From: a virus
Length of the DNA: 63,719 bases
IMG/VR virus record: IMGVR_UViG_3300032240_001660
Span: 1 to 63,719 of that record
Strand: one strand, 5' to 3'
Shown one piece after another: positions 43,983 through 62,290 of the stretch (its first letter is position 1; each line of letters opens with the position of its first letter). Position numbers and translations under genes: made by a program. The notes beneath the pieces were generated by a model. That model did not search any database, had not been told where the DNA came from, and saw only the letters and a list, made by a program, of their open reading frames with translations.

Positions 43983-46346
43983 ATGGCAGATAAGTCACCA
44001 ACCCTAGAAAAAAAGGGACCTTCTTCTGAATTGGCAAATGAAGGTGGAACATCCGAAGCAAACGCCTACTTCAAAATAATCGCAAAGAGTATGTTGTCCT
44101 TGCATCTAATGGCAAGAGACATGAATGTTGCTCGCCAAAATGTCCAAAAATTGGTGAAGATGAAAGGTGGAGAAGTTGCTAAAGGGGCAGATGCACATTG
44201 GTTAAATGAAACAGATGCAGAAACTAAATTAAATGTAGATAAAGAAAAACTTTCACCTACAAAAGTGGAAGAAAAAGAACCTACTAAAAAGAAATCCATG
44301 TTAAGTAAACTTGGAGAAAATCTTTTTGGTGGTGGAATAAACAAACTCAAAAAGAACTTATTGCGTTATGCAAAAGTTATCTTCTCACCTAAAAATCTAT
44401 TAAAGATATTAGGTAAAATAGCATTACCATTAACAATCATTACTGCAATATGGCAAGGCATTACTGGTGCTTGGGATGCTTATCAGGAAACTGGTAGTAT
44501 TTGGGAAGCATTTAAAGGTGGTATAGGACAAATTGTTGACTTCTTCACATTTGGACTTATCGACAAAGAAATGGTCGGTGGTTTTATGGATAAAGTTGCC
44601 GATTTTCTATCACCCGTAACTGATGCAATCAAAACTTTTTTTGGTAAATTTTCTGATTGGTTCTCTGAAAAATTCAATGCAGTAAAAAGTTTCTTTGGTG
44701 TGAATGTTGCACCTTCTACAAAAGTTGTGGAAGTTAAACAAGATGAGCAAGCCGCTAAAGATTATGAGAAATGGAAAGCGGAACAAGAAGCCGCTATTAA
44801 AAAACAAGAAGAAGATTTAGCCAAGTTAAAGAAACAAGAAGAAGAAGCTCAATACACAGGTGGAGATGAGATTGTCCGTAAACGAATGGGTTTACAGGAA
44901 AAATCTGCTGAGGTTGTTCAAAAAGAAATAGAAACTAAGAAAGCCGCAGTTGCCGCAACAGGTGCAACTAAAGAAACAAAAGCGGCCGCAGTATCAGGTG
45001 GAAAACCGCCAGCAACAGCACCGACTAAAGAGGCAGCTGCCGGTCCTGCGCCAACGATTTCGGGTGGCGACAAATGGATAATGGAGATGATTAAACAACA
45101 TGAAGGTGTTAGATTAAAACCTTACAAAGACACAAAAGGATTGTGGACTGTTGGTGTTGGTCACTTAATTGGTGACGGCAAATCATTACCACCTGAATGG
45201 GACAGACAATTTACAATGGAAGAAGTTGATAAGTTGTTTGCACAGGATTTTGCAGAACATAAGAAATGGGCGGAAAAATCACCTGGATGGGACAAAGCAA
45301 ATCCAAAGGGTCAAGGTGCATTGATTGATTTAGCATTTAATATGGGTGGTGGTTGGTTTAAGAAATTTAAAAATGCCTCTTCTAAATTGGCATCAGGAGA
45401 TTTCAAAGGTGCCGCCGATGAATTGATTGATAGTGAATGGTATAAGCAAGTCAAAGGTCGTGCAGTTACCATTGTTAATTTAATTCGTGATGGTTCAGGT
45501 GGTTCTCCAACACAAGTTGCTCAAGCAAAACCATTAAATGTTCCGCCTCCTGCGGCAACAGGAGGAACAACCGCAGCTGCAGGACCTACCGGTGGTGCGG
45601 GAGGTGGCGGTGGTTCACTTGCATCTTTAGTTACTACACAATCAGGTGTAGATTTAAGTGCGTTTAATTCTGAATTTGAAAAACGAGTTTCCACTATGGC
45701 GGCAGACTTCAAGGCCAAAATGGGAAAACCACTTCTCATTACTTCAGGTTATCGTAGTAACGAAAAACAAAAGCAACTTTGGGATGAAGCACTTGCAAAG
45801 AATGGCGGTGATGCGGCTAAAACAAGAAAATTAGTTGCAGAACCGATGCCACCTTTAGGACAAGGCAAAGGAAGTTTTCACCTTACAGGATATGCCATTG
45901 ATATTAATTCAAAAGGTGATACTGGTATTAACTCACTTGCCGGCAGTAGAGATAAACCTACTGGTTGGTTGGAAAAATTCGGATTAACAAGACCAGTTGC
46001 AGGTGAAGATTGGCATGTCCAAGCAACAGGACTTGCACCAACACCAGACAATCCTAATAATCCTGGTAAAACAATTGCGGTTGCAAGTAAGGATGGAAAA
46101 GCAACCGATGTTGCAACCGGTAAATCAGAACAAATTGCGGGTAATGCACCATCCACAGGAACACAAGTGGCACAATCATCTGCTGATGTAGCATCTGGTC
46201 AGAGACAACAACAGAAGCCAAATACACCAATTGTGATGAATAATAATACAACCAATGTTACATCGGTAACAAGAACCACGACTACGCCACAACCAAAAGA
46301 ACAACGACCTGATACCGCAGTTAACCTAGCTGCGAGGGTGGCATAA
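43983..46346 (+). CDS. Hub/tape-measure-like protein B with GH24 lysozyme and M15 peptidase domains (787 aa)
   Basis: N-terminal paralogue of protein A (AYFKIIAKSMLSLHLMARDM; hydrophobic block about 135-190). Residues about 363-510 are a T4-type lysozyme: KQHEGVRLKPYKDTKGLWTV keeps the catalytic Glu374, Asp383 and Thr389 with T4 spacing (9 and 6). Residues about 560-685 are an M15/VanY-type peptidase: SFHLTGYAIDI (His633, Asp640) and EDWH (Glu675, His678). It would cut glycan and peptide bonds of peptidoglycan during injection, replacing the lysozyme absent from gp5. The C-terminus is Thr/Asn-rich. The neighbouring gp5 and hub genes make a virion-borne tail enzyme likely. Confidence 0.8.
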   Translation: MADKSPTLEKKGPSSELANEGGTSEANAYFKIIAKSMLSLHLMARDMNVARQNVQKLVKMKGGEVAKGADAHWLNETDAETKLNVDKEKLSPTKVEEKEPTKKKSMLSKLGENLFGGGINKLKKNLLRYAKVIFSPKNLLKILGKIALPLTIITAIWQGITGAWDAYQETGSIWEAFKGGIGQIVDFFTFGLIDKEMVGGFMDKVADFLSPVTDAIKTFFGKFSDWFSEKFNAVKSFFGVNVAPSTKVVEVKQDEQAAKDYEKWKAEQEAAIKKQEEDLAKLKKQEEEAQYTGGDEIVRKRMGLQEKSAEVVQKEIETKKAAVAATGATKETKAAAVSGGKPPATAPTKEAAAGPAPTISGGDKWIMEMIKQHEGVRLKPYKDTKGLWTVGVGHLIGDGKSLPPEWDRQFTMEEVDKLFAQDFAEHKKWAEKSPGWDKANPKGQGALIDLAFNMGGGWFKKFKNASSKLASGDFKGAADELIDSEWYKQVKGRAVTIVNLIRDGSGGSPTQVAQAKPLNVPPPAATGGTTAAAGPTGGAGGGGGSLASLVTTQSGVDLSAFNSEFEKRVSTMAADFKAKMGKPLLITSGYRSNEKQKQLWDEALAKNGGDAAKTRKLVAEPMPPLGQGKGSFHLTGYAIDINSKGDTGINSLAGSRDKPTGWLEKFGLTRPVAGEDWHVQATGLAPTPDNPNNPGKTIAVASKDGKATDVATGKSEQIAGNAPSTGTQVAQSSADVASGQRQQQKPNTPIVMNNNTTNVTSVTRTTTTPQPKEQRPDTAVNLAARVA

Positions 46347-50922: not shown

Positions 50923-51495
50923 TTACCACGCCCAACTAACGCAAGAATACCTTGTGCCTTTTGTTACTGGTTGAACTCCGTGTGGAAATAAAAATACGGA
51001 AGGAAATACAACTGCTGTGCCGGTTTTAAATTTGATTTCTTCGTCACCCCACATAATAAATTCACCACCCTCATAATCATCATTCAATACCGCAAGAAAG
51101 GTCATTGTAGGAATACCTTTTGCTTGACCATCAAACAATGAATGAATATGGTCGCAATGTAGTGCCATCAACCTATCTTCACTATAACGATTAAAACGAA
51201 CGGCAGAATAACCTTGCCATCCATTAAACCAAGGAAACTCTAATTCATTGGTATACTTTCGATATGCATCCCAAATTCTCTGCATCACATATGGTTGTGT
51301 AGATATATTACCACCCTCGAAAGAAACATCCAATTCACGATTGCCACTTTGAGTTCCATATGAACCATCAGAAGCATTATAGAATGTGTGTTGTTGCCAA
51401 TTTACATTGTTCATTTCACTTATGGTTTGTTTACACTTATCGGCATCTAACCAATTGTCATAAACTTTAACATAAGACATTAAATCTTTTTCCAT
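50923..51495 (-). CDS. 2OG-Fe(II) oxygenase, prolyl-4-hydroxylase-like
   Basis: About 190 residues from the ATG at 51495. Core: SAVRFNRYSEDRLMALHCDH with the HxD iron ligands, TMTFLAVLNDDYEGGEFIMW, and VVFPSVFLFPHGVQPVTKGT followed by RYSCVSWAW, giving the distal His and the Arg that holds 2-oxoglutarate. This P4H-like family is frequent in marine and freshwater T4-like phages. The target is unknown. It is the second oxygenase in the window, unrelated in detail to the one at 9123-9740. Confidence 0.82.
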   Translation of the reverse strand: MEKDLMSYVKVYDNWLDADKCKQTISEMNNVNWQQHTFYNASDGSYGTQSGNRELDVSFEGGNISTQPYVMQRIWDAYRKYTNELEFPWFNGWQGYSAVRFNRYSEDRLMALHCDHIHSLFDGQAKGIPTMTFLAVLNDDYEGGEFIMWGDEEIKFKTGTAVVFPSVFLFPHGVQPVTKGTRYSCVSWAW

Positions 51496-51497
51496 AA

Positions 51498-52223
51498 TCA
51501 ATCCCACAAACCTTGATAATATTTACCAAACAAACGGAATCCATTCTTCATTCTATCTTCAACAATTTGCATACCATCGTAATCGCATTTATATGTATGA
51601 TTTGGTCCATCTTTCATTTGCGTGAACTTGTGTTCACCTTTTGGTACTTCGTTGCCGTCTTTGTCAACAGGCACCCAAAGTATATCCATCTCACCAGAAC
51701 GATATGCATCTTGCCAAGAATCATCAACCTTGTGCTCAAATGCATATATCATTTCTTTGAGAACATAATCCCAACGCTTGAAATGGTTGTCATCGGTGTC
51801 CCATTCGTTTTCTTTTGGTGGTGCAGAAGTTGATTTTAATTCTTCTGGCACATCCTCATCATCAACAAAAGGCGCACCGTGTTTTGATTCTTTCAATTGT
51901 TTCAACATTGGAAGAATGATGTATGACAATGTGTGATCCATTGACCAAGTATCCCATCGGTCAATTTTTACATAATCAATCTTGCGGTCAACTTTACTCC
52001 AAACCCATTGAATTGCTTTACTGATAGGTAGAAGGCGGTCAGACCATTTCTCAACCCATTCGGGATGTTCGATGTATTTGTATTTACCTTCAAGTTCATC
52101 TAATGCGTTTTGGATACTACTATTGCGACTACATTTAGACCAATCTGTCCAAAAGAACATATAATCTAACATAGTGTAAGGACTAATCCAATGGTCTTTA
52201 TAATTATTAATGTAAACTTTCAC
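51498..52223 (-). CDS. Conserved phage protein of unknown function (241 aa)
   Basis: Starts at GTG 52223 (MKVYINNYKDHWISPYTMLD), overlapping the preceding small gene as GTGA. Trp- and Tyr-rich. The pattern INNYKDHWISPYTMLDYMFFW and VKIDRWDTWSMDHTLSYIIL is one I recall from many environmental T4-like phages, always without known function. A conserved His/Asp-rich block (WSMDHTLSYIILPMLKQL) may be catalytic or structural; not determinable here. Confidence 0.6.
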   Translation of the reverse strand: MKVYINNYKDHWISPYTMLDYMFFWTDWSKCSRNSSIQNALDELEGKYKYIEHPEWVEKWSDRLLPISKAIQWVWSKVDRKIDYVKIDRWDTWSMDHTLSYIILPMLKQLKESKHGAPFVDDEDVPEELKSTSAPPKENEWDTDDNHFKRWDYVLKEMIYAFEHKVDDSWQDAYRSGEMDILWVPVDKDGNEVPKGEHKFTQMKDGPNHTYKCDYDGMQIVEDRMKNGFRLFGKYYQGLWD

Positions 52224-52372
52224 TCGACATTTTCCTTATATGATTTAAACTTATCGTAATTACGAATATCCGAAATTCTTTTTCGGCCTGCGGAATTACC
52301 CAACCATCTAAGCTGGGTACACATGGTACATCTGCAACTTCTACGAGGTTTCTTTCTTTTGAAATTTGCCAT
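52220..52372 (-). CDS. Small basic protein with CxCxxC motif (50 aa)
   Basis: A 50-residue reading frame: FKRKKPRRSCRCTMCTQLRW then GNSAGRKRISDIRNYDKF. Very basic, with a CRCTMC cluster likely to bind zinc. AGGGGTAAATC precedes the ATG, and its TGA overlaps the GTG start of the next gene, so it is genuine and coupled. Probably a nucleic-acid-binding protein. It is the first gene after the tmRNA. Confidence 0.65.
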   Translation of the reverse strand: MANFKRKKPRRSCRCTMCTQLRWLGNSAGRKRISDIRNYDKFKSYKENVE

Positions 52373-52387
52373 GATTTACCCCTAAAT

Positions 52388-52555
52388 TTGTGGATGGTTA
52401 TTCTGTTACGAGGAAACCATCCGAAACCCTAAGCTGCGTTTAGGCTGCTAATGCGAACTGTGAGTCGTTTGCGTTTACTTTGATTTAGTTTTTACACCTG
52501 CTCTGGTGTGTTGTCCACTTCTATACTTGTTACCCTGTCGAAACTATGCAGGCCC
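52388..52555 (-). ncRNA. ssrA: tmRNA coding piece
   Basis: The mature piece should start at GGGCCTG (52555, RNase P cleavage). It contains a TTTCGACAGGG segment, a hairpin ACACC/GGTGT that may be part of pseudoknot 1, the resume codon GCA at 52472 and the tag frame, a CCTAA/TTAGG hairpin just after the tag (helix 5-like) and a final 8-bp GGATGGTT/AACCATCC hairpin (52392-52422) that may mark the 3' end. Confidence 0.85.
52440..52472 (-). CDS. tmRNA tag reading frame, peptide ANDSQFALAA
   Basis: GCA AAC GAC then TCA CAG TTC GCA TTA GCA GCC, stop TAA. The result, ANDSQFALAA, keeps the AND start and ALAA end of gamma/betaproteobacterial tags (E. coli ANDENYALAA). The LAA end is the ClpX/ClpA degron. 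The first alanine of the full tag comes from charged tmRNA. Confidence 0.92.
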   Translation of the reverse strand, partial: ANDSQFALAA

Positions 52556-52616
52556 ATCAGAAGTATAATCCCGTTTCTTATGTCTCTATATGCTATGGGC
52601 ATATCGATTATACTTT

Positions 52617-52684
52617 TGGTGGACCTGGGGGGATTCGCACCCCCGTCCAGAATACTTTTCTAGTTGCTTCATACAACAATTCAA
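52617..52684 (-). ncRNA. ssrA: tmRNA acceptor piece
   Basis: Contains the T arm and the 3' half of the acceptor stem with an encoded CCA end at 52617. The T loop reads TGCGAAT, with G where U55 is usual. About 65-70 bases if it starts near the predicted transcription start. The UGUUGU segment near its 5' end can pair with ACAACA of the coding piece as distal P2. Confidence 0.85.
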
Positions 52685-52690
52685 TAAACA

Positions 52691-52719
52691 ATTATATCAG
52701 AATTTATTTAGTGTGTCAA
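52691..52719 (-). promoter_or_regulatory. Consensus sigma70 promoter of the tmRNA
   Basis: TTGACA and TATAAT with exactly 17 bases between and an extended TGA before the -10: a perfect host promoter. The spacer contains ACTAAATA (52705-52712), a late-type box, so expression may continue late. Confidence 0.9.
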
Positions 52720-53382
52720 GTGGTATTTACCAATGTACCGATTTGTCATAGTAAGGTAATCTTGTTTTTTCTCAATGAAAATTTGAGGTAAAGTCTCACC
52801 TTCAACGGCAATTGCAATAACCAATTGTTCAATTGGCATGCCTGTTCTTTCTTCAAACATTTCGGAATAGGCAGTTGCTTGCATGAAGTAATTTTCAATG
52901 TGATTTTTATCTTTCAATCGAGAGGATGTTTTCCAATCAATAATGGATAAAACACCATCCCAAATACCAATGCAATCACAACGACCTGCAATCTTCAATC
53001 TATCTGAGAATAGTGGTTGTTCAATACCATAAATGTCACCAATATGAGTATCCAAATAAGGTCTGATATTGACAAACATTTCTTTAATGTCTGGCATCAT
53101 CGTTTGCATTTGAAGTGGTGACATTTCATTTAACAAATACTTCTCAACTGAATTATGCAACTTGGTACCACGACCAGATGCTTTACGAGAGATTTTATTT
53201 GCTTCTTCTTCACCAACTCTTTGGCGCCACTCCATAATCGCCTTCTTATTGTAAGAGGACAATACAGTAGTGATAGAAGGATAGAATTTGCCTTCAGGTG
53301 TTTTATATTTTCTACCAGATTCGGTAGTTTCGGATTCTAAATCAAAATTTAATGATTCAAGTTTAACATGATTAAAAGGCAT
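52708..53382 (-). CDS. PD-(D/E)XK (RecB-like) exonuclease
   Basis: A 224-residue protein. N-terminal FYPSITTVLSSYNKKAIMEW and GRGTKLHNSVEKYL are typical of phage PD-(D/E)XK exonucleases (GxxxH motif). The catalytic block is FSDRLKIAGRCDCIGIWDGV with IIDWKTSSR, giving Asp, Asp and Lys, followed by the QATAYSEMFEERTG helix. Such enzymes process DNA ends in recombination or host DNA breakdown. The 3' end of the gene overlaps the -35 region of the tmRNA promoter. Confidence 0.75.
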   Translation of the reverse strand: MPFNHVKLESLNFDLESETTESGRKYKTPEGKFYPSITTVLSSYNKKAIMEWRQRVGEEEANKISRKASGRGTKLHNSVEKYLLNEMSPLQMQTMMPDIKEMFVNIRPYLDTHIGDIYGIEQPLFSDRLKIAGRCDCIGIWDGVLSIIDWKTSSRLKDKNHIENYFMQATAYSEMFEERTGMPIEQLVIAIAVEGETLPQIFIEKKQDYLTMTNRYIGKYHLTH

Positions 53383-53705
53383 TATTTGGTCATTCGTTTT
53401 GTAATTCTGTCCACATGTTTTTTAACCACTTGAGCGCTTCTTGCCTCTTTAATGGATTTGCGGTGATATTTTTCTCCAACTGGACTAGAAGGATGTTTTT
53501 CGGCTACTTTCTGTAACACTTCTTTGAAACCACCGAGTTTTCTGTCACTTTCACGAGCAGAATTAACACCAGACACAATCGCTGGTGCAGTCAATACGGA
53601 TTGAATATGAGGATTTTCTTTTAAGAATTCTTCACGCTCGGAGATTTTCATAAACGATTCGAATTCTTCACCTGTTTCAGTATCTAAAAAATTATATGTT
53701 GGCAT
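53382..53705 (-). CDS. Conserved phage protein with MPTYNFLDTETGE head (107 aa)
   Basis: The N-terminus MPTYNFLDTETGEEFESFMK and REEFLKENPHIQSVLTAPAI match a family common in T4-like phages, apparently related to FmdB-type zinc ribbons but lacking the cysteines. The C-terminus is Lys/Arg-rich (KSIKEARSAQVVKKHVDRIT), suitable for nucleic-acid binding. Start taken at the ATG at 53705. Overlaps the exonuclease start (TAATG). Function unknown. Confidence 0.6.
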   Translation of the reverse strand: MPTYNFLDTETGEEFESFMKISEREEFLKENPHIQSVLTAPAIVSGVNSARESDRKLGGFKEVLQKVAEKHPSSPVGEKYHRKSIKEARSAQVVKKHVDRITKRMTK

Positions 53706-60028: not shown

Positions 60029-60598
60029 TTAAAAAATATGGTCTGCTATGCCAAGTTCTATTACTTCATCCACAGTCAACCACACATCACTTGGCGGTAG
60101 AAGTTTGGTCTTGATTACTCTAGTGGATAAATCGGTACATTCTTTGATTAAATCAACCATGCGGTTATTCATGTTTTCGTTTTCACGCAATGATGCTTTA
60201 AGGTCGTGATATTTACCTTCTGTATTGTCTGAAAATTGATGACAGAGAATACTTGTGTTCTTAGCGATATATCTTTCACCTTTTGTTCCTGCCACAAAAA
60301 TCATAAAGGCTGCACTCATTATATTACCCATTCCAATTGTGCGAATTGGATGTTTTGAATTACGCATCATATCAATCAACGCAAAGGCATCACAAAGGTT
60401 GCCGCCAGTTGAATTGATATAAAGTGTTAGAAGTTTTTCACGGTCATCCGTGTTTTCAAAAATAACCCACTTCACGGCCTCACCAATCGATTCTTCATTG
60501 ACTTCGCCATTAAGAATGTGAATGTGGCTTTTGAGTAGACCAAGACCAATTACATCATCTGCACCTAACGCAGAATCTTCCCGAATTTTAGTTACCAT
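60029..60598 (-). CDS. clpP: ClpP-like protease with intact catalytic triad
   Basis: A 189-residue ClpP-family serine protease. TLYINSTGGNLCDAFALIDM is the oxyanion-hole strand, GNIMSAAFMIFVAG holds the nucleophile Ser95, ILCHQFSD the His120 and PPSDVWLTVDE the Asp171: spacing nearly identical to E. coli ClpP (97, 122, 171). ClpP forms double heptamers that degrade unfolded or tagged proteins fed by ClpX/ClpA. It overlaps the epimerase gene by 11 bases. With the phage tmRNA it could process tagged peptides; it may alternatively cleave phage proteins. Confidence 0.9.
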   Translation of the reverse strand: MVTKIREDSALGADDVIGLGLLKSHIHILNGEVNEESIGEAVKWVIFENTDDREKLLTLYINSTGGNLCDAFALIDMMRNSKHPIRTIGMGNIMSAAFMIFVAGTKGERYIAKNTSILCHQFSDNTEGKYHDLKASLRENENMNNRMVDLIKECTDLSTRVIKTKLLPPSDVWLTVDEVIELGIADHIF

Positions 60599-61529
60599 CT
60601 TTGTTTTGCCAATTGTAAGCTGTTTGTATAATAGAGATTATATCATGCTTAGGTCGGTATTTCAATATGTCTGAGGCAAAAGAGATATCGGCAAACAGAT
60701 AAGGAGGGTCTCCTGCCCGTCTAGGTTCATACCGATAAGTTACTTTCTCGCCAGTAATCTTTTCAACAAGGTTAACAATTTCTTGTACCGAGTATCCTTT
60801 GCCTGTTCCTAAATTAATAGTCTGCGGTGAATTGTGTTTTGCAAGGTATTCGCCGGCTAATAAATGTGCTTCGGCAACATCACTTACATGAACATAGTCT
60901 CTGACACAAGTACCATCGGGTGTGTCATAGTCATTTCCATAAATTGTGAAGTTATTTAGATTTTGCAGAATTCGAGGAATTAGATGTGTCTCTGGTTGAT
61001 GACATTCACCCATTTCGTTTTCAGGATCCGCACCTGCAAGGTTAAAGTAACGGAAAATAATATAGTTCAAACCCGATTGTTTGATTGCCAGTTCCGCACA
61101 ATACTTACTACCTGCATATGGGTTATTGAAAGGATTTAACTTATCGTTTTCTTTAATCGCATCGGTCTTTGTTTCATAGACACCTGCGGTTGAAGAATAA
61201 ATGATATTGTTCACACCCCAATACTTCATAACATCAAGTAATGTGTTTGTGCCAGACGAATTGTTATGATAAAATGTGGTTGGAAATTTTACTGATTCAC
61301 CAACTTCAATTCTTCCCGCAAGGTGAAAAACTGTATCGATATTTACTTTATCAAAAAGGTGATTTAGTGATTCTTTATCAGTTACATTACAAGGATAAAA
61401 AAGGTCGAGATATTCATTATTGGTATGTTCGATATCCAGACCAACAACTTTCCATCCTGCCTGTTTAAGTGTTTTGGCCAAGTGTGAGCCAAGGTAGCCT
61501 GAAGCACCTGTTATCAATGCAGTTTTCAT
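60588..61529 (-). CDS. galE: UDP-glucose 4-epimerase-like SDR enzyme (GalE)
   Basis: Starting at the ATG at 61529 (ATGA overlap) gives 313 residues. Extended-SDR signatures: TGASGYLGSHLAK (Rossmann), HLAGRIEVGESV, SSTAGVYETK, YAGSKYCAE (catalytic Tyr-Lys) and the ending typical of NDP-sugar epimerases (INLGTGKGYSVQEIV). Probably interconverts UDP-glucose and UDP-galactose or related sugars, for glycosylation with the adjacent transferase. Confidence 0.88.
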   Translation of the reverse strand: MKTALITGASGYLGSHLAKTLKQAGWKVVGLDIEHTNNEYLDLFYPCNVTDKESLNHLFDKVNIDTVFHLAGRIEVGESVKFPTTFYHNNSSGTNTLLDVMKYWGVNNIIYSSTAGVYETKTDAIKENDKLNPFNNPYAGSKYCAELAIKQSGLNYIIFRYFNLAGADPENEMGECHQPETHLIPRILQNLNNFTIYGNDYDTPDGTCVRDYVHVSDVAEAHLLAGEYLAKHNSPQTINLGTGKGYSVQEIVNLVEKITGEKVTYRYEPRRAGDPPYLFADISFASDILKYRPKHDIISIIQTAYNWQNKDGN

Positions 61530-62290
61530 ACCAATTGTATTCCAGGTCCTATTTGTATCGGTTCGAGTATTTGCGTAGTGTATTGTGAGGAGGTCTTCCA
61601 TGGGAAATTATCACCATATTTCATTTGTTGTATTTTGTTACCTTCTTCAAAGAATTCTTTATTGACAGAATTTTCATTTCCATCCAGACGATAACACATA
61701 GTGTGACTGTTGGTACAATCATAATTAGGAAAGTTTTGTTTTAAGTTGTAAAAAAACTGCCTATCTGCACCCCATTGCCCGTACCAAGAATGACCGATAC
61801 GAGTAGCAACATCACGCTTAACGGCAAATGAAGATGTATCAATATGATTGACATTGGGATCAAAATACACAGGCCACTTGCCCAAAGATTCGCAATTATC
61901 TTCGCAAATGAAGTTTCCATCTTTATCATAAATTTTCCTTAACGAATAAACCCAATCATAACCTTTTTGCAGTTTCTTAACCATCTTATCAATGTGGCAA
62001 GGATCAAACCAGTTATCTTCATCGAGGTAACATATAACATCAGCATTGACAAGGAAACTACATGAAGCATATACACGATGACCATACCAACTTTTACCAA
62101 CATTTTCTTCCAATATCACAAATTTAGTTCTGGATGCACCTTCGCAGGTATCAAAAACTTTTCTTCTGTGGTCATACCCATCTATAAAAATATAATGGGT
62201 TAAATTTTTATAAGTTTGTTTATCAACCGATTCGATGCATTTTTGAAGATGCATTGATCCAATCGTTGGTGTTACCACAGCAACTTTCAT
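61526..62290 (-). CDS. Family 2 glycosyltransferase
   Basis: A 254-residue GT-A fold enzyme: VAVVTPTIGSMHLQKCIESV start, YIFIDGYDHRRK, then VICYLDEDNWFDPCHIDKMV with the DED metal-binding motif. C-terminal region ADRQFFYNLKQNFPNYDC. Transfers sugar from an NDP-sugar, possibly to phage DNA, virion proteins or host surface glycans. Operon with the epimerase. Confidence 0.85.
   Translation of the reverse strand: MKVAVVTPTIGSMHLQKCIESVDKQTYKNLTHYIFIDGYDHRRKVFDTCEGASRTKFVILEENVGKSWYGHRVYASCSFLVNADVICYLDEDNWFDPCHIDKMVKKLQKGYDWVYSLRKIYDKDGNFICEDNCESLGKWPVYFDPNVNHIDTSSFAVKRDVATRIGHSWYGQWGADRQFFYNLKQNFPNYDCTNSHTMCYRLDGNENSVNKEFFEEGNKIQQMKYGDNFPWKTSSQYTTQILEPIQIGPGIQLV

Follow-up and report, generated by a model that had tools for sequence, protein, structure and literature searches.

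Circularly permuted tmRNA genes are processed by RNase P and 3'-processing enzymes, which free the intervening segment (IVS). Alanyl-tRNA synthetase (AlaRS) reads the G3-U70 pair, SmpB delivers the molecule and a tag ending in ALAA leads to proteolysis. In phages, a two-piece tmRNA has been published for Methylophilales phage Melnitz, a T4-like phage of OM43 (MZ577097), and the same study counts 133 distinct tmRNA structures in phages, 53 being two-piece and 50 of these coming from marine or aquatic phages (PMC9004378). The Menderavirus phages of Stenotrophomonas, termed T4-like by their authors (PMC6940306), also carry one: in IME-SM1 and Bhz51 a permuted form scores above the cut-off of RF04321. 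The original prediction had held the two-piece form to be unreported in a T4-like phage, which these cases contradict. Another removable insert within a tmRNA gene is on record, a group I intron (PMC11915505). IMG/VR contains hundreds of permuted phage tmRNAs, with at least 120 loci in one pattern scan; a beta-type pattern scan of genome contigs gave 7 places only. As a molecule, the tmRNA described here is another case of a known kind and not a new form.

The window (the whole 63.7-kb viral record analysed here) holds a complete circularly permuted tmRNA gene, read on the minus strand, which the Rfam model ends place at 52372-52720 (-). The extent proposed at first, 52388-52719, had the right location, but the gene is slightly longer on both sides. 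RF01850 (beta_tmRNA) matched over the full model (1-331) with 121 bits against a cut-off of 84 (E 2.7e-36), and RF04321 (tmRNA_permuted) over the full model (1-213) with 117.5 bits against a cut-off of 47. ARAGORN called a single permuted tmRNA at 52349-52709 (-) and no other tRNA in the window. The check proposed for a phage-encoded permuted tmRNA, a covariance search together with ARAGORN, thus returned a permuted match carrying the predicted tag, ANDSQFALAA. The acceptor half lies 5' of the coding half by eye, in ARAGORN and in Rfam, and the T arm, acceptor halves, ACCA, P2, tag and stop were each found at the place predicted. The features of the locus are as follows.

52708-53382 (-): PD-(D/E)XK exonuclease gene (phrog_298), marker of the conserved locus; 45% identity to Melnitz gene 83.
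52691-52719 (-): sigma-70 promoter TTGACA-17-TATAAT with TG before the -10; 12/12 consensus matches.
52654-52650 (-): P2 5' strand TATTC, partner of GGGTA at 52535-52531; Rfam alignment.
52644-52628 (-): T arm, stem GGGGG/CCCCC and loop TGCGAAT; Rfam alignment and base pairing.
52627-52621 (-): acceptor 3' half CAGGTCC; Rfam alignment and base pairing.
52620-52617 (-): discriminator A and encoded CCA; Rfam alignment and base pairing.
52616-52556 (-): IVS of 61 nt, the putative exchanged cassette; fold, and 98-100% identity in L159, L174, L439 and L440.
52555-52549 (-): acceptor 5' half GGGCCTG, with which the coding piece begins; 7 pairs with CAGGTCC, including G3-U70.
52548-52537 (-): D region CATAG, then the invariant TTTCGAC (52543-52537); Rfam alignment and A18-G55/G18-U55 co-variation.
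52472-52440 (-): tag frame GCA AAC GAC TCA CAG TTC GCA TTA GCA GCC TAA; ARAGORN.
52422-52392 (-): 8-bp hairpin GGATGGTT/AACCATCC 3' of the tag; aligned to the RF01850 3' hairpin.
52220-52372 (-): ORF of 50 aa, Cys/Arg-rich (MANFKRKKPRRSCRC...), just 3' of the tmRNA; AGGGG at 52383-52379.

The two acceptor halves form seven pairs, the third being the G-U pair foreseen in the original prediction, and ACCA is encoded. The P2 pairing of GGGTA with TATTC was likewise recovered. The IVS has the expected 10-bp stem extending the acceptor stem, as a perfect closing stem (AAGTATAATC/GATTATACTT), followed by an inner hairpin (ATATGC/GCATAT) and a 3' TGAT before GGG. Acceptor and IVS together fold as one hairpin of -26.7 kcal/mol (z = -5.0), and 0 of 200 shuffles were as good. 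No ribozyme or intron family of Rfam matched the window IVS. An ORF through it (ATGCCC..., about 36 codons) was rejected: no ribosome-binding site was seen and the frame was chance-like. The tag, ending in ALAA and then a stop, is the commonest in the viral set among the matches listed; its 42 copies there fall into 11 coding variants, differing mostly at third positions. Unusual tags were noticed in other phages (L229-L233, L235, L250, L251 and others), among them ANDERFLMAA, ANDAFYGEDRLAA and long ones such as ANADTFDFSAMSFTGNTVRGAANESRFALAA.

The attribution to a T4-like phage was borne out by the gp32, gp59, DsbA and baseplate wedge gp6-type and gp25-type genes of the window. By gp6 protein, the closest isolates are Pelagibacter phage HTVC008M and Melnitz, at about 41-43% identity. 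The gene order is exonuclease, tmRNA, DsbA, gp59, gp32. Relatives were found with the tmRNA directly downstream of the exonuclease gene, and many keep it at this place. The promoter lies partly within the 3' end of that gene, and a -35/-10 pair stands at the same place in L024, L225, L227, L229, L234, L235, L238 and L239; the exonucleases of relatives with a similarly placed promoter are 65-100% identical. The promoter is absent from the L242-L262 group, where the tmRNA abuts the exonuclease end and is presumably read through from upstream. The Cys/Arg-rich ORF, probably co-transcribed with the tmRNA, is kept in L225 and L227 and partly in L226; no Pfam or PHROGs family was found for it. No SmpB gene was noticed among the genes searched in the 63.7 kb. 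Elsewhere in the window, a 787-aa protein (43983-46346, +) combines a phage-lysozyme domain with a VanY-type peptidase domain, and near the contig end a glycosyltransferase family 2 gene overlaps an NAD-dependent epimerase gene (60588-62290, -).

The locus resembles that of Melnitz, where a permuted tmRNA also lies 3' of the orthologous exonuclease (45%) and 5' of genes for the late-transcription coactivator (DsbA/gp33 in the window), gp59 and gp32. The two differ in that the Melnitz tmRNA is alpha-type in Rfam whereas the beta model is best for the window. The Melnitz tmRNA is also followed by a glutamine riboswitch; an Rfam search of the window found none at 51400-53500. The T-loop (UGCGAAU in the window against GGCAGUA in Melnitz), the IVS and the tag are all different. 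The Bhz51 tmRNA, unlike that of the window, lies within a tRNA cluster, and the IME-SM1 tag is VAANDDSYTVRIAA. The group I intron is self-splicing and situated in the T-loop region, whereas the window IVS stands between the CCA and the acceptor 5' strand.

The lineage of the molecule is less simple. Rfam retained the betaproteobacterial model RF01850 over the other clan members, at full length and with the best score, and RF01849, the alphaproteobacterial model, scored below it. However, the window IVS is longer than that of betaproteobacterial tmRNAs, the 3' terminal stem of RF01850 is unpaired, and in place of the beta elbow, UUCGAUU with GG, the window has the alphaproteobacterial A18-G55, with the loop UGCGAAU and with AG preceding TTTCGAC. 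Its tag is short compared with RF01849 (10 residues ending in ALAA). The 80 distinct bacterial permuted tmRNAs had either A18-G55 (68, the loop being UGCGAUU in 7 of these) or G18-U55 (12), without exception. A18-G55 is therefore an alphaproteobacterial trait, and a phage-specific elbow, considered at one stage, was rejected. Viral loci among the matches listed were split 69 to 71 between the two types with three apparent exceptions, in which the D region may be one base out of register. Positions 18 and 55 (window 52544-52548 and 52633-52639) thus switch together near-perfectly in viruses and perfectly in the 80 bacterial loci. Since the beta model is preferred but the elbow is of the alpha type, the origin of the window tmRNA is mosaic or undecided. 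The 399 genomes of the order of Thauera gave no close tmRNA match and no G55 T-arm match.

The IVS was then followed through the viral loci, which are metagenome contigs from pattern scans requiring conserved motifs. Flanks were compared within about 600 bases of the tmRNA gene, and identities below 0.66 were taken as background, unrelated DNA under global alignment giving about 0.6 by the same measure. A later scan, using a 29-nt piece of the window IVS, returned 4 other contigs, all permuted tmRNA loci. These (L159, L174, L439, L440) match the window at 98-100% in the IVS and fully in the acceptor stem, but their adjoining flanks are at background. The T arm of L439 is of the alpha type, and that contig has no other gene in common with the window in the compared stretch; L174, with proteins at about 40-83% identity, comes from the same phage family as the window and has its IVS unchanged. 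The converse was seen in L225 and L227, which on either side share about 95% identity with the window and differ from it in tag, D region, T arm, acceptor stem and IVS, the pairing being kept despite the different sequences. A second prospective scan, based on another IVS, returned 25 contigs, in each of which the match lay within a permuted tmRNA; 21 were parsed by script and represent 13 flank groups, the other 4 being examined by eye. No IVS was shared with 103 bacterial permuted loci.

Among the matches listed, 256 distinct viral loci formed 136 IVS clusters, 53 of them with two or more members; 180 of the 266 same-IVS pairs with long enough flanks, from 28 clusters, had both flanks at background. 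The reverse test, on 25 pairs with similar flanks among the matches listed (median identity 0.96 upstream, 0.93 downstream), gave a median IVS identity of 0.60, with values below 0.7 in 15 pairs and a different acceptor stem in 12. Relatives fetched by their exonuclease, not by their tmRNA, also had permuted tmRNAs with different acceptor sequences; all those parsed had the acceptor 7/7 paired, pairing being a requirement of the parser. At least 8 closing pairs were counted in 82 of the 85 distinct IVSs compared and in 121 of the 419 hybrids that served as controls, and TGAT ends 111 of 130 distinct IVSs (both among the matches listed). The boundaries TCCACCA and TGATGGG are near-invariant, and the stem ends of different IVSs tend to be similar. 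These comparisons indicate that the IVS is exchanged as a unit between viral contigs, often with the acceptor stem and with pairing kept. In some pairs the coding half and T arm are exchanged too. The conservative reading is therefore of a gene that is mosaic in general and varies most in its IVS, which stands at the extreme without being the sole part exchanged. Searches of an open-access library gave no earlier description of IVS exchange; the exchange, and not the tmRNA itself, seems to be the part not described before.

Other phages have more in their IVSs. An ORF with a Shine-Dalgarno-like site was present in 7 of 85 IVS representatives among the matches listed, all long IVSs, against a mean of 0.95 and a maximum of 3 in 40 rounds of shuffling, and mean hydropathy was at least 0.77 in 4 of the 7. 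Short ORFs, often hydrophobic and with such a site, were noticed in the long IVSs of L125, L126, L130, L134, L172, L177, L225 and L242, for instance MIEAIGFFVTLIVLMWIAIILGEMFL (L125) and MFENWHWVYMWGILVVVNYMFWIIKSLF... (L126); those of L172 and L225 are diverged versions of one hydrophobic peptide. A recurrent inner motif, stem-TGAAAGAAACC...GGGC-stem, was seen in the IVSs of L112 (a cluster of 14), L059, L252 and L441. Its stems differ while pairing is apparently kept (TTACA/TGTAA, CTAGA/TCTAG, TTAGA/TCTAA), and it has the look of a separate structured-RNA family. A speculative and rather unlikely reading is that in aquatic phages the IVS serves as a cassette slot within an RNA that looks essential. 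Its small cargo of structured RNA hairpins or short membrane micropeptides would be freed by tRNA-processing enzymes and swapped between phages in conflicts, for example over superinfection exclusion or the evasion of defences that target RNA.

A dedicated mobile element, moved by a site-specific mechanism of its own and not by general short-homology recombination, would fit the inverted-repeat ends of the IVS and its occurrence inside permuted tmRNAs in 29 of 29 contigs from the two IVS scans. It would also fit the 58 of the 180 background-flank pairs (among the matches listed) in which the acceptor stem differs though the IVS is shared, and in which the exchange must therefore end close to TCCACCA and TGATGGG. 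However, IVSs of 20-117 nt encode no recombinase or nuclease, the coding half and T arm move as well, and free recombination is typical of T4-type phages; we consider such an element unlikely.

A role without rescue can also be imagined, in which the tRNA-like part acts as a decoy, titrating host SmpB or AlaRS and so blocking host trans-translation. Such a role was proposed for the RNA of phage DS6A, which consists of the tRNA-like domain only, and an RNA of that type inhibits the endogenous tmRNA (PMC4131195; PMC11915505). In the close relative L226 (4673-5000) the tag is apparently missing from the tmRNA, as is the beginning of the following gene; this is either a tag-less tmRNA or an assembly gap. 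In the window, by contrast, the tag frame is intact up to ALAA and the stop, with mostly synonymous variants, and a decoy has no need of a tag. This role is accordingly thought quite improbable. The chance that misassembly at a short conserved repeat, and not exchange, explains the sharing of IVSs is slight: every case is an assembled contig and the conserved motifs on both sides could misjoin, but to place 60-100 nt between unrelated flanks in this way would take a pair of misjoins closer together than the length of a read, recurring in 28 clusters that come from different samples, and L174 keeps the window IVS unchanged within the same family. A non-functional relic of a host ssrA acquired by recombination, to which the lack of a noticed SmpB gene nearby and the ssrA fragments that phages can carry (PMC9004378) might point, is hardly credible given the complete structure, the acceptor stems compensated across relatives, the conserved promoter and the same position in many relatives.

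The locus is thus very probably a functional permuted tmRNA gene of a T4-type phage related to Melnitz and the pelagimyophages, inherited at one locus and mosaic inside. By analogy with described tmRNAs, we infer two-piece processing, charging and rescue activity. The gene would be transcribed early by the host RNA polymerase, and the IVS would be cut out by RNase P, expected to cleave between 52556 and 52555, and by 3'-processing nucleases, giving an acceptor RNA and a coding RNA that stay together through pairing in the acceptor stem and in P2. Host AlaRS, assumed to be compatible, would charge the molecule, and host SmpB, for which the same is assumed, would bring it with EF-Tu to stalled ribosomes. 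The stalled product would be released with the ANDSQFALAA tag and directed to ClpXP-type proteolysis, and ribosomes would thereby stay available to the phage. Truncated messages are expected in infection, and free ribosomes and amino-acid recycling are plausible benefits; the same were proposed by the authors of the Melnitz study (PMC9004378). As for the exchange, the short homologies on both sides (TCCACCA, TGATGGG) would allow ordinary phage recombination to replace the hairpin with pairing kept. Because the permuted order makes the acceptor 3' half, CCA, IVS and acceptor 5' half contiguous, their exchange as one hairpin could leave the tRNA-like fold intact.

As a phage tmRNA, the molecule adds to a known group. 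The exchange of the IVS would matter because it gives the puzzling permuted form of the gene a concrete advantage, namely that both strands of the acceptor stem lie within one swappable hairpin. The IVS, dismissed as a discarded spacer, would become a means of tracing the movement of genes between phages, and pairs of near-identical phages that differ in the insert would provide natural experiments on its function.
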